This document shows, piece by piece, positions 791 through 4,908 of a stretch of DNA of 64,000 nt. Source of the stretch: Buttiauxella gaviniae (GTDB lineage: Bacteria > Pseudomonadota > Gammaproteobacteria > Enterobacterales > Enterobacteriaceae); contig NZ_JBFMVT010000002.1 in NCBI RefSeq assembly GCF_040786275.1, positions 1,612,001 through 1,676,000 of the forward strand, in the 5' to 3' direction. Each line of letters starts with the position of its first letter. The first letter of the stretch is position 1. A program made the translations under genes and the position numbers. The notes below the pieces were generated by a model, which saw nothing but the letters and a program-made list of their open reading frames with translations, was not told the origin of the DNA and did not search any database.

Positions 791-885
791 GGAAGATCGT
801 CGTCTCCGGTGAGGCGGCTGGACTTCAACTCCAGTTGGTGCCGCCAGCGGTGCCGGGCAGGTTCGACTCCTGTGATCTTCCGCCA
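791..885 (+). tRNA. selC: Selenocysteine tRNA (UCA anticodon)
   Basis: A 95-base tRNA beginning GGAAGATCGTCG and ending in CCTGTGATCTTCC plus an encoded GCCA. The acceptor stem pairs GGAAGATC with GATCTTCC, an 8-bp stem typical of tRNA-Sec, and the anticodon loop reads ACTTCAACT, with TCA at the anticodon position. The long variable arm (GGTGCCGCCAGCGGTGCC) is also diagnostic. It decodes UGA in fdoG within the same window. The 3' end of selC is a known integration site for P4-type satellites and pathogenicity islands, and an AT-rich accessory segment begins directly after it. Confidence 0.97.
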
Positions 886-985
886 AACTCTTTTTAACAA
901 TACCCGAGTTTGCTCATATTAATTGTTCGTCATCTACATCACTATTACGCAACCCAAGATATGATCCGAAAATATTTTTTGTATT

Positions 986-991
986 TATAAT
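986..991 (+). promoter_or_regulatory. Likely -10 box for the ATPase/DUF4435 pair
   Basis: TATAAT lies 15 bases before the ATG at 1007, preceded by a very AT-rich stretch; AGGGAG at 996-1001 is the ribosome binding site. No clear -35 box is visible, so this is a plausible but unproven promoter. Confidence 0.45.
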
Positions 992-1006
992 GTATAGGGA
1001 GATTGT

Positions 1007-2368
1007 ATGAAAATATCAAAGATAGAGTTTATCAAATTATTCGGTGTTTTTGATCACTCAATAAACCTTAATGAAGAAGGAGGTATAACAATAATAATAG
1101 GAGAAAATGGATTAGGAAAAACAGTCATTCTAGAAGCAATTAACGCCCTTTTCAATCGACAGTATAATTTTTTTCATAAAATCACCTTTGAAAAACTCAT
1201 TATTACTTTCGATACAAAAGATACATGGAGCTTTCGGAAAGGAAAGCAGCAAACAAATGCTTCACAATTATTTATAACAAAGGGTGCAAATGGAAAGAAT
1301 GAAAGTAAAGAATATTTGATCAAGGATGGATTGCCACCAAATATATCAAAGCATGATTTATTTAAAAGACGAATGATGCAAAGAGAATATTTAAGAAGGA
1401 GAAACATTCAATTTGCTGAGAATATATATGATTCGCGCCTTATTGATGGTTCTATCATAAATGAAATGGATATGATTGAAAGAAGCATTTGGAATGAGCA
1501 TCTAATTAATGAGTATGACTCACATAATGATAAAAATGTTCAAAATCCAAAATGGTTTGAAGAAGCTTTAGATGCGATAAATATTAGGCTAATTGAAACC
1601 CAGAGAATAATAGGCCGAAAAGATTTAAATAGCGATGTCATTCTTAATCCGGTGGAATATTACTCGAAAGAGTTGAAAGAGATGATAGTCCAAGCGGTTA
1701 AAGAATCATCGAATGTTGCATCTTCTCTTGATAGTACTTATCCAAACAGGCTAATTTCAGAATTAAAAAGAGGTGCTGATGACTCTTTTGAAGAACTCAA
1801 TGACGCCTTAGCAAAATTAAATGATAGAAGGAAATTATTGTCCTCTGTTGGACTTATTATAGATTCAGAAGATAATGATTTGCTTCAGATTGAAAAAAAT
1901 CAAGAGGATCTTATAACCATATTAAAAATATATATTGATGATAGCCATAAAAAACTAGCTCCCTTCGAGGAAATTTCTAAAAAAATAAAATTATTTAAAG
2001 AAATCATCAACACACGTTTTAAACATAAAAAATTAGAAGTAACACAAGGTGAAGGCATTACATTTAAATCGACTGTAATAACAAACAGGGACAATAAATC
2101 AGTTAATATCCCATCAACCGGTTTATCATCAGGAGAACAAAATGAATTAATATTATTTTACAAGCTGATATTTAATTCGCAACCTAATGATATGATCCTC
2201 ATTGATGAACCTGAACTTTCATTACATATATCCTGGCAGAATAAATTCATAGAAGATATAAAAGATATTATATCAATTAATGACCTATCGGTTATTATTG
2301 CAACTCACTCACCAGACATCATCAGCCATAATTGGGAGTTAATGATTGAATTGCAAGGAGTAGAGTAA
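1007..2368 (+). CDS. AAA/ABC-type ATPase, AriA-like (PARIS-type defence)
   Basis: A 453-aa SMC/OLD-like ATPase. Walker A is GENGLGKT (residues 32-39), the ABC-type signature is LSSGEQ (373-378), Walker B is MILIDE (396-401) and the H-loop is ATHSPD (432-437). Between the ends lies a lysine- and glutamate-rich helical region that could form a coiled coil. The stop codon abuts the ATG of the next gene, a DUF4435 protein, so both are one transcription unit. An ATPase of this class next to a DUF4435 gene is the layout of PARIS (AriA plus AriB), which senses phage anti-restriction proteins. The gene is far more AT-rich than its surroundings, which suggests transfer. Assignment to PARIS is inference; other ATPase/TOPRIM pairs (OLD or Gabija relatives) are the main alternatives. 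Confidence 0.75.
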   Translation: MKISKIEFIKLFGVFDHSINLNEEGGITIIIGENGLGKTVILEAINALFNRQYNFFHKITFEKLIITFDTKDTWSFRKGKQQTNASQLFITKGANGKNESKEYLIKDGLPPNISKHDLFKRRMMQREYLRRRNIQFAENIYDSRLIDGSIINEMDMIERSIWNEHLINEYDSHNDKNVQNPKWFEEALDAINIRLIETQRIIGRKDLNSDVILNPVEYYSKELKEMIVQAVKESSNVASSLDSTYPNRLISELKRGADDSFEELNDALAKLNDRRKLLSSVGLIIDSEDNDLLQIEKNQEDLITILKIYIDDSHKKLAPFEEISKKIKLFKEIINTRFKHKKLEVTQGEGITFKSTVITNRDNKSVNIPSTGLSSGEQNELILFYKLIFNSQPNDMILIDEPELSLHISWQNKFIEDIKDIISINDLSVIIATHSPDIISHNWELMIELQGVE

Positions 2369-3262
2369 ATGTTTTGTGATCATATTACTCCAGACAGAAC
2401 TGCAAATGCAATTATTCAGGATAAAAGTTTTAATGGCTATTATTTATTTATAGAAGGCATTAAAGATTTAAAAACTTACAAAAAATTAATGAGTAAGGAT
2501 GTAAAACTGCAAGTCACATTTGGAAAACATAATATGAGGAAAATAAAAGACATACTACAAGAAAGAGAATATAAAAAATTTATTGGGATACGAGATGCTG
2601 ATTTTCTTCGTTTAGAGGGGAATGAAAAATTCGATAACAATTATAATGAATGCATATTTCCAACAGATGAGCATGATTCAGAAGGAATGATAATAAATAG
2701 TGATGCTTTATATGATTTCATTGATTCCGTTTCAAATGAGAAAAACATAGCATTATTTACTGAAAAATATGGGGAGATTAGAAATGTGATATATGAATTA
2801 TGCTATCCATTAGCATGCTTGAGACTAGCTAACAAAAAAAACAACTTAGGATTGGCATTTAAGCCAGTAAAACCTGAAGGCAATAAGTTCAAGATAAAGA
2901 AATTCATCTCAGAAGAAAATTTTTCATATTTAGGTCATGAAAAGATGATAAATACAATAGTTGAATACTCAACTAATCGTGGTGGAAAAATAACCTCCCG
3001 AGAACAGATACTATCTTGCCTAACAAATGAAATATCGTCTAACCATGATATTAAACAAATAATCAATGGCCATGATATAGCAGAGGTCTTATATTTGATT
3101 AGTAAAAAGGGACTCAAAAGCCTTAGTAAAACTATTAATGATTCCGGATGCGTGGAAGAGATGCTCCGTCTAGCATATAATTACGATTATTTCTCAACAA
3201 CATCTGTTTTTAAAAAAATAATTAGCTACCAAAATACTAATGGCATAGAGTTATTGCGCTAA
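2369..3262 (+). CDS. DUF4435 TOPRIM-like protein, AriB-like effector candidate
   Basis: A 297-aa protein with features of DUF4435. LFIEGIKD (residues 26-33) carries a likely catalytic Glu29, IRDADF (74-79) carries the DxD pair Asp76/Asp78, and TDEHDSEGMI (99-108) is a further acidic motif. This E...DxD layout resembles TOPRIM nucleases. In PARIS the DUF4435 protein AriB is held by the ATPase AriA and, once released, cleaves host tRNA. The ATG follows the stop of the ATPase gene with no gap, with GGAG upstream inside that gene, so the two are probably translationally coupled. Base composition is as AT-rich as in its partner. Nuclease activity is inferred, not shown. Confidence 0.7.
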   Translation: MFCDHITPDRTANAIIQDKSFNGYYLFIEGIKDLKTYKKLMSKDVKLQVTFGKHNMRKIKDILQEREYKKFIGIRDADFLRLEGNEKFDNNYNECIFPTDEHDSEGMIINSDALYDFIDSVSNEKNIALFTEKYGEIRNVIYELCYPLACLRLANKKNNLGLAFKPVKPEGNKFKIKKFISEENFSYLGHEKMINTIVEYSTNRGGKITSREQILSCLTNEISSNHDIKQIINGHDIAEVLYLISKKGLKSLSKTINDSGCVEEMLRLAYNYDYFSTTSVFKKIISYQNTNGIELLR

Positions 3263-3327
3263 ATTTCCATTTAGATTTAAAAATTCATTTGCATATTATT
3301 ATTTAATAAAATATATGGGTAATACAT

Positions 3328-3513
3328 CTAATTATTACCCTTCAACCTCTCCAGTTCCTTCCTTCCCAACGTCTTTAACCAATTCCCAAGACTCATACCC
3401 GCTTCTTTCGCTGCAACTTCAAATTGAGCTTTCAGCTCTGGTGAGATCCTGATCTGAAAAGCAGGATTTTTACCGGAAGCAGACTGCTTAGCATCATATT
3501 TGACCGTTGACAT
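3328..3513 (-). CDS. Ribbon-helix-helix (Arc/HicB-type) DNA-binding protein
   Basis: A 61-aa protein beginning MSTVKYDAK and containing FQIRISPELKAQFEVAAKEA, typical of a ribbon-helix-helix DNA-binding domain, followed by a basic tail (GRKELERLKG). I chose the ATG at 3513 over an upstream one at 3552 because AAGGG lies 7 bases before it. It is divergent from the 176-aa gene at 3647, and the 133 bases between them hold two inverted repeats (ACCCT/AGGGT and AGTA/TACT). It may therefore control its own gene and its neighbour. No toxin lies next to it on the same strand. Confidence 0.75.
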   Translation of the reverse strand: MSTVKYDAKQSASGKNPAFQIRISPELKAQFEVAAKEAGMSLGNWLKTLGRKELERLKGNN

Positions 3514-3646
3514 GTATGTACCCTTGAGTCTATTGTGGTTATTAAGGTACACACCCTATCACAGGGTCACCTGAAAAAAAACGCCCCCGAATAGTATTAC
3601 GAGTACTAGACGAGGGCTCACCACAAACGTTAAGGAAACTAACGCC

Positions 3647-4177
3647 ATGGCTAACACCAATAGTACCACAATCACCAATCCTGAAATCATCTGCCCGCCG
3701 CAAGTTAATGAAACGGCGATTGCTACGCTGCTCAAAACTCCGCTTGGCGCGACGATGGATTTATTTCAGGTACTCGAAAGCTGCCAGCAGCACGTCGATG
3801 CGCTTATAGAAAACGATAACAACACCGAGTGCATGGCGCTTTGCGGGCGGTTGCTTGCCGGGCTGGAAGTGCTGAAATACGCATTAAAAGCGCCATTGCC
3901 TGCGCATCTTATTGAGCGCCTGACGGTGGATGTGGCGGAGCCTGATAATTATCGCGGTGCGCTTTCTACCGATTCGGAAACCCTACGGGAATATTGCGTA
4001 GCGCTAACTATATTATTGCTGCAACGCCAGCAGTCATCTGAGCAGGAAGAACACATCACCGGATTATTATTCGAGTTGGTTAACGTTCTGGTCGAAGATT
4101 TGAAAACGCCGCGTTTTGTTCGTACAGAAGGTGGGCTGGCAATGATTAGTGGCGAGGCGGTGCCGGCAATTCACTAA
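3647..4177 (+). CDS. Hypothetical protein of accessory-element family (paralogue of 21436-21882)
   Basis: A 176-aa acidic, mostly helical protein of unknown function without signal peptide or membrane segment. The C-terminal half carries PLPAHLIERLTVD, then TGLLFELVNVL and TPRFVRT. The 148-aa protein at 21436 shares the same blocks (PIPEHLIESFTVD, TGLLFELTNYF, APRFVRT), so the two are paralogues. Its family signature and the setting near selC, a divergent ribbon-helix-helix gene and HicAB, point to a satellite-phage or genomic-island origin. The ATG is preceded by AAGGAAACTAACGCC. Base composition is close to the chromosome, unlike the AT-rich pair upstream. Confidence 0.8.
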   Translation: MANTNSTTITNPEIICPPQVNETAIATLLKTPLGATMDLFQVLESCQQHVDALIENDNNTECMALCGRLLAGLEVLKYALKAPLPAHLIERLTVDVAEPDNYRGALSTDSETLREYCVALTILLLQRQQSSEQEEHITGLLFELVNVLVEDLKTPRFVRTEGGLAMISGEAVPAIH

Positions 4178-4309: not shown

Positions 4310-4567
4310 ATGAAACGACAACATCAAAGGACGTTGGAGGCGATCTATCGTCGTCCCGTGGCAGGTTCTCTGGAATGGCGGGACTTTAAAGCGTTAATGA
4401 TTTCGCTGGGGGCAGAGGTAGATGTAAGTGCCGCTGGATCGCGAGAAGCATTCACATTACGGGAAGAGGTTCGTGTGTATCACCGACCACATCCGCATTC
4501 GACGATGGATAAAGGTGCCGTAAATGCGACCCGCATCTGGTTAGAAAGTATGGGAATCAAACCATGA
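4310..4567 (+). CDS. hicA: HicA-family toxin
   Basis: An 85-aa basic protein of the HicA mRNA-interferase family, which folds like a double-stranded RNA-binding domain. LEWRDFKALMISLGAEV (residues 21-37) is the first helix region, and VYHRPHPHSTMDKGAV (56-71) is the characteristic C-terminal motif. The usual GSH or GSR turn appears as AGSREAF (42-48). Its stop overlaps the start of the next gene by 4 bases (ATGA), the usual toxin-first layout of hicAB. It should cleave mRNA when the antitoxin is lost. Confidence 0.85.
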   Translation: MKRQHQRTLEAIYRRPVAGSLEWRDFKALMISLGAEVDVSAAGSREAFTLREEVRVYHRPHPHSTMDKGAVNATRIWLESMGIKP

Positions 4568-4908
4568 ATAACATTATTAAAATTGATGGCCACACCGCTA
4601 TTGTTAGCTTCGACCCAGACATTGAAATGTTTCGCGGCGAGTTCGTTGGCTTAAACGGCGGTGCAGATTTTTACGCCTATAGTGTGCAGGAATTGAAAAC
4701 AGAGGGAGCCGAATCTCTTAAATTCTTTCTTGATACATGTCGTGCAAAAAACATTGAGCCTTATAAATCATACAGCGGGAAGATTTCTGCTCGTCTAACG
4801 CCTGAAGACCATGCGGCTCTTGAACGTATCGCGCTGGCATGCGGCGAGAGTATTAATCAGTTACTCAATCAGGGCGCAAAATTAATCATTAAGCAACATG
4901 ATGCGTGA
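4564..4908 (+). CDS. hicB: HicB-family antitoxin
   Basis: A 114-aa antitoxin. The N-terminal part (IIKIDGHTAIVSFDPDIEMF, then GEFVGLNGGADFYA) is the partial RNase H-like HicB fold that blocks the toxin. The C-terminal part (SGKISARLTPEDHAALERI) is a ribbon-helix-helix DNA-binding domain that would autoregulate the operon. Its start overlaps the hicA stop by 4 bases. A strong terminator follows 33 bases downstream. Confidence 0.88.
   Translation: MNNIIKIDGHTAIVSFDPDIEMFRGEFVGLNGGADFYAYSVQELKTEGAESLKFFLDTCRAKNIEPYKSYSGKISARLTPEDHAALERIALACGESINQLLNQGAKLIIKQHDA

Follow-up and report, generated by a model that had tools for sequence, protein, structure and literature searches.

What is the AT-rich two-gene unit that directly follows selC, the gene of tRNA-Sec, in Buttiauxella gaviniae? 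The question was addressed in a stretch of 64,000 nucleotides of contig NZ_JBFMVT010000002.1 (positions 1,612,001 to 1,676,000 of the forward strand), called the window below. An earlier note, made from the sequence alone, had proposed that the unit is a PARIS (phage anti-restriction-induced system) or a close relative, stranded at a satellite integration site. PARIS is composed of the ATPase AriA and the nuclease AriB; it is activated by Ocr-type anti-restriction proteins and cleaves the anticodon arm of tRNA-Lys, tRNA-Thr and tRNA-Asn. With a probability of about 0.77, the window pair is a divergent anti-phage system of the AriA-AriB group that works by a PARIS-type mechanism. The unit and its features are as follows.

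791..885, + strand: selC, tRNA-Sec gene (ARAGORN), left border of the cargo slot
996..1001, + strand: AGGGAG, likely ribosome-binding site of gene A, putative, from reading of the sequence only
1007..2368, + strand: gene A, AriA-like ATPase of the ABC (ATP-binding cassette)/OLD (overcoming lysogenization defect) type, 453 residues, proposed sensor and holder of B
1100..1123, + strand: Walker A GENGLGKT, residues 32-39, from the alignment; K38 opposite residue 39 of the AriA chain
2123..2215, + strand: LSSGE signature (373-377) to Walker B DEPE (400-403), from the alignment
2355..2360, + strand: AAGGAG within gene A, likely ribosome-binding site of gene B, putative on the same ground
2369..3262, + strand: gene B, AriB-like TOPRIM protein, 297 residues, proposed nuclease effector
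2453..2455, + strand: Glu29, the TOPRIM glutamate, invariant in 29 of 29 rows
2594..2602, + strand: Asp76-Ala-Asp78, the TOPRIM DxD, invariant in 29 of 29 rows
2681..2683, + strand: Glu105 of the TD.HD.E motif, in at least 90% of 29 rows; Glu also in L058 and L059
3065..3076, + strand: NGHD motif, residues 233-236; GHD kept without exception in 29 rows, whereas L058 and L059 have RGH or HGH

The layout described in the earlier note was confirmed from coordinates and base composition. Gene A starts 121 bases after the end of selC on the same strand, and its TAA (2366-2368) directly abuts the ATG of gene B at 2369. The guanine-cytosine (GC) content of the unit is about 0.29-0.32 in steps of 500 bases against 0.51 in the whole window, so that the unit looks foreign to its surroundings; at third codon positions it is 0.25 in both genes alike. 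Scans of 800-3700 gave 16 promoter-like sites with 15.4 expected and one terminator-like site with 1.9 expected, from which nothing can be claimed.

The earlier note had made its reading depend on a TOPRIM fold of the second protein. In structure predictions of each protein singly, the best fold match of gene A was AriA and that of gene B was AriB, both well above the next family, and the AriB fold spans the length of gene B. Identity on the structure alignments was about 20% to AriA and about 10% to AriB.

The full set of ABC-type ATPase motifs claimed for gene A was recovered: Walker A, the signature, Walker B with its glutamate (LIDEPE, residues 398-403) and, also from the alignment, His 434. 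K38 lines up with K39 of AriA, a mutant site of that protein. E401 falls opposite AriA residue 393, and an E393Q mutation is named in the title of PDB entry 8v49. Both catalytic ATPase residues of AriA (K39, E393) have thus counterparts in the alignment (K38, E401). The gene A protein matched AAA_15 at 72.6 bits and AAA_21 at 67.9 bits, above the published PARIS rule for the ATPase (AAA_15 of at least 32 bits or AAA_21 of at least 27 bits; PMC9122126).

The E...DxD pattern of gene B stood as the earlier note had written it. E29, D76 and D78 are invariant in the 29-row alignment and also in all six rows of a smaller one, the window protein being counted as one row in both. Glu29 aligns with Glu25 of Pseudoalteromonas AriB (L058), which together with L059 forms the rows closest to canonical AriB. 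By our reading, in the register of L058, Glu29 would correspond to Glu26, given as the catalytic glutamate of published AriB in PMC12409363; in this register gene B carries both the E26 counterpart and the metal-binding acidic residues of the TOPRIM site. That paper also describes K60 and K64 of AriB as holding the anticodon arm; this region aligns to gene B with gaps, too loosely for the residues to be paired one to one.

The neighbour half of the published rule, a DUF4435 (PF14491) match of at least 27 bits (again PMC9122126), gave the opposite outcome, and gene B does not reach it. At an expectation (E) value of 0.001, DUF4435 matched 15 of the 29 rows of the B alignment (A4), the window protein not being among them, and at E 1 no match was obtained in the whole own genome (G000). 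The earlier assignment of the second gene to DUF4435 is therefore not borne out by a direct Pfam match; the tie runs through its relatives and the predicted fold. Because the DUF4435 score is not reached while the structural and catalytic features agree, the pair is named divergent AriAB-type (PARIS-like) and not PARIS in the strict sense.

PARIS of E. coli B185 (PMC9122126; 8ux9, 8v45, 8v46) resembles the window pair in the gene order ATPase-TOPRIM, in providing the best folds of both proteins, in the Walker residues of AriA and the TOPRIM glutamate and acidic residues of AriB that line up, and in carriage on mobile elements, which for the window pair was seen in its relatives. It differs in the low identity given above and in that window B is missed by the DUF4435 profile; moreover, window B has NGHD where Pseudoalteromonas AriB has RGH. 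The ariAB genes of Salmonella BREX (bacteriophage exclusion; STM4493/STM4494), as described in PMC9009780 and PMC11341690, are also an enterobacterial ATPase and DUF4435 pair among defence genes. They lie inside BREX, whereas the window genome has no PglZ match, and they are likened here by description, not by sequence.

A recurring pairing was found among relatives. At E 0.001 gene B relatives occurred in 5 of 392 genomes of the family, and gene A relatives in the same five at E 1e-25, a threshold chosen strict in order to exclude ordinary ABC proteins; the two were adjacent in all five, which argues for a pairing beyond chance. A scan with the gene B alignment recovered 26 loci in genome_contigs and three in viral contigs. 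The former span Pseudomonadota, Bacteroidota, Spirochaetota, Cyanobacteriota, a Lokiarchaeota bin and others. At all 29 loci an ATPase frame lies directly upstream of the B relative, with a spacing from 95 bases of overlap to a gap of 10 bases when the first possible start codons are used. The distances of A and B were correlated (r 0.935, 46 pairs, three near-identical rows excluded), and none of 5000 permutations was as high (maximum 0.367). In one genome (G334, L004/L011) the ATPase is split into open reading frames (ORFs) of 150 and 249 residues while the TOPRIM gene is intact.

Among the scans of genome_contigs, only the alignment-based one recovered gene B relatives; the single-protein scan with gene B gave 77 pattern matches, none of them a relative. 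Single-protein search with gene B gave no match in phages and one Vibrio record in plasmids, and megablast gave no match in 20,395 E. coli genome records. The order-level A1 search at E 1e-8 detected 1 of 295 genomes, the window's own, a count to be read with genome draws and thresholds that differ from those of the 5 of 392.

Trees were built from 51 B rows and 49 A rows, after rows that were a second copy of one locus or no separate pair had been dropped (L001, L002, L007-L012, L046, L049, L052, L054, L056, L057); the A tree also lacks L004 and L022, whose ATPase frames are short. The only firm join of the window pair was that with the pair of Rahnella rivi (100/99 and 100/100; bootstrap 100 in both trees), while long branches and midpoint rooting leave the deeper branching uncertain. 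A locus of the same genus (L055, G668) carries a different DUF4435 and ATPase lineage, so that the genus has at least two AriAB-type lineages.

Several results weigh against placing the pair with PARIS. Window B has no Pfam DUF4435 match even at E 10, and PADLOC AriB models do not match it. PDB sequence and profile searches with gene B, the A1 profile and the B proteins of L003 and L053 never reached AriB, and the profile-profile comparison with two canonical-like AriB rows was weak (probability 52.5, E 1.4e-4). The window and Rahnella proteins lie far from the canonical-like L058 and L059 in the B tree and apart from them in the A tree too, and the gene A structure model is of low confidence at residues 132-175. 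Finally, PMC11341690 reports no activity of the Salmonella BREX PARIS pair against the phages assayed. Conserved pairing, co-evolution, predicted folds, conserved catalytic residues and carriage of the relatives on mobile elements nevertheless point to the AriAB type. The part of the earlier proposal that stands is thus an AriA/AriB-type pair, in a divergent lineage.

For PARIS, PMC11455837 and PMC12409363 describe an AriA hexamer that holds AriB, up to three copies of it (PMC11455837), until a charged anti-restriction protein frees it; once free, AriB acts as a dimer that nicks the anticodon stem of tRNA, and translation stops. The window pair probably works in the same way. By homology, complex formation, release, an RNA target and an abortive outcome would be expected. 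The ABC-type ATPase of gene A would assemble and keep the gene B product inactive. During infection a phage product, by analogy an anti-restriction protein, would alter A and release B. Freed B would dimerise, and its two-metal TOPRIM site would cut host tRNA in the anticodon arm, with arrest of translation and phage growth.

The host genome fits such an anti-restriction alarm by its restriction-type methylases. Three strong N6_Mtase matches were obtained, two of them distinct; the third, at a repeated contig end, is probably one of the other two. With two distinct genes, a restriction system that the alarm could guard is probably present.

The same architecture could act on DNA, the pair nicking or degrading it as the effectors of OLD, Gabija or retron Eco8 do. 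OLD nucleases and Gabija GajA share the combination of ATPase and TOPRIM chemistry (PMC12839542), yet there both reside in one protein whereas the window has two separate ORFs. A DNA target is considered unlikely. Septu and retron systems provide a further comparison. In Septu PtuA/PtuB and with retron PtuA the partner is an HNH nuclease, unlike the window partner with its AriB/TOPRIM fold. The term 'HNH nuclease' is found in the title of PDB entry 9n69.

The genomic settings of relatives bear on the origin of the PARIS-like pair. That of Rahnella rivi (L013, the same locus as L002) is the nearest, with 48% identity in B and 50-54% in A. Its neighbours are those of a P2-like prophage: a portal gene (phrog_68, E 7.1e-170) on one side, a gpA-type replication gene (phrog_91, E 2.6e-270) on the other, and a terminase gene further out. 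The gap between gpA and portal is a P2 defence hotspot according to Rousset and colleagues (PMC9122126). The window pair, in contrast, lies beside selC without adjoining phage genes. In the Yersinia phage vB_YenM_31.17 (Peduoviridae; L042, 4632-6781) an AriAB-like pair lies between CI repressor and integrase, its second gene annotated as hypothetical. On a Salmonella plasmid a related pair adjoins AlpA and DUF927 genes, which we read as a P4-like setting, and further pairs occur on the small mobilizable plasmid pHW66, a Vibrio plasmid and a Rouxiella plasmid. The E. coli IncF plasmid pDS26_129 (L062, 3078-5286) also carries an AriAB-like pair, whose second gene is annotated only as hypothetical protein.

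Such carriage on plasmids and prophages would also suit a toxin-antitoxin pair that stabilises its replicon, A restraining B with no role in phage defence, and a structure commentary does term PARIS a toxin-antitoxin system (PMC11455837). In PARIS of E. coli B185, however, defence was lost on deletion of either gene, with no toxicity (PMC9122126), and other defence-type cargo fills the place of the window pair in some sister genomes; this alternative appears very unlikely.

The place of the PARIS-like pair after selC was compared in 12 genomes of the genus, the selC region being present in every one and 11 sisters being set against the window. Its right flank consists of two genes.

3328..3552, - strand: ribbon-helix-helix (RHH)/HicB-type gene, first of the conserved right flank (HicB 24 bits, cut-off 21)
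3647..4177, + strand: gene of a 176-residue protein, conserved right flank, multicopy family (sister-genome comparison)

In 10 of the 11 sisters the DNA match stopped exactly with selC, at 885, and in L077 at 902. It resumed 552 to 3199 bases later in eight: in five where the RHH gene ends (window 3320-3349) and in three just before the 176-residue gene (3620). Among these eight, the content of the slot (window 886-3330) differs, as annotated with Pfam on eight and PADLOC on six cargo proteins. L079 carries the known defence pair SIR2 and HerA (PADLOC E 3.5e-126 and 2.4e-248); L077 an Mrr_cat and M78 peptidase protein, of which L080 has a look-alike by eye; L081 a DUF6680 protein without PADLOC match; L082 a RelA/SpoT-type protein; L083 a protein without Pfam match; and L087 a ParA-like protein with a 219-residue protein without match. 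No frame of 80 residues was found in the slot of L085. One of these cargoes is a known defence system and some of the others are candidates. In L078, L084 and L086 the stretch taken did not show the right flank; by eye, selC is followed there by metabolic, transport or large surface-type genes instead of defence genes, and the claim of a defence slot is limited accordingly.

P4-like elements such as phiR73 use selC. The integrase and the att repeats at the tRNA end that characterise P4-like satellite cargo were not found in the window: the 3' end of selC occurs there once, with no second att-type repeat, and all 10 PF00589 matches of the genome fall outside it. The satellite stranding proposed earlier is thus not supported, the nearest relative being in a P2-like prophage, although a satellite origin is possible. 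The pair probably arrived as phage-borne cargo and now occupies the variable slot. From the single selC end and the lack of an integrase match in the window, we infer that slot cargo is exchanged through recombination in the flanks. The same lack of integrase match and att repeat could suggest an inactive remnant of an earlier phage or satellite. Both frames are nevertheless open, with start and stop codons, likely ribosome-binding sites and the catalytic residues kept, and a remnant is extremely unlikely.

A wider proposal is put forward tentatively, at somewhat less than even odds. The PARIS-like pair and its Rahnella sister would form an AriAB lineage missed by current PARIS detection, with a trigger and a tRNA target of its own. 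The region from selC to the RHH and 176-residue genes would be a defence-exchange slot of the genus, where entire systems (AriAB-like, SIR2-HerA, Mrr-type nuclease, RelA/SpoT-like) swap without a resident integrase. At E 1, DUF4435 had no match in three of the five family genomes with a related pair; published PARIS counts would for this reason be too low if the reading is right. If true, a lineage so remote would be a natural test of which phage products AriAB systems sense and which tRNAs they cut, and the selC slot a short, well-bounded site for finding more defence genes in the genus. A literature search on selC with defence terms gave no title devoted to the slot.

The 176-residue protein of the right flank had no Pfam family over cut-off and no NCBIfam or PHROG match. 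Its family has eight matches in the own genome (seven if the repeated contig ends are taken as one) and, at E 1e-10, occurs in 70 of 295 genomes of the bacterial family. A survey covered 48 sites, five in the own genome and 43 in others, L123 being excluded because it repeats L122. Nine of the sites had an antisense RHH partner, and the upstream side was more AT-rich at 30, which is not significant (Wilcoxon P 0.087). The nearest frames of at least 140 residues had PADLOC matches on either side (128 families upstream, 100 downstream). Over the 48 sites the family was not established as a general marker of defence cargo. Next to some copies lie genes of type I restriction or a single cargo gene (L122, L125, L126). 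Both ends of C2, the main contig of the own genome (L122, L123), repeat each other, with the same 176-residue gene and restriction genes, so that this assembly is probably an untrimmed circle. Downstream of the slot, a HicA-HicB toxin-antitoxin pair with overlapping frames is located at 4310-4567 and 4564-4908.
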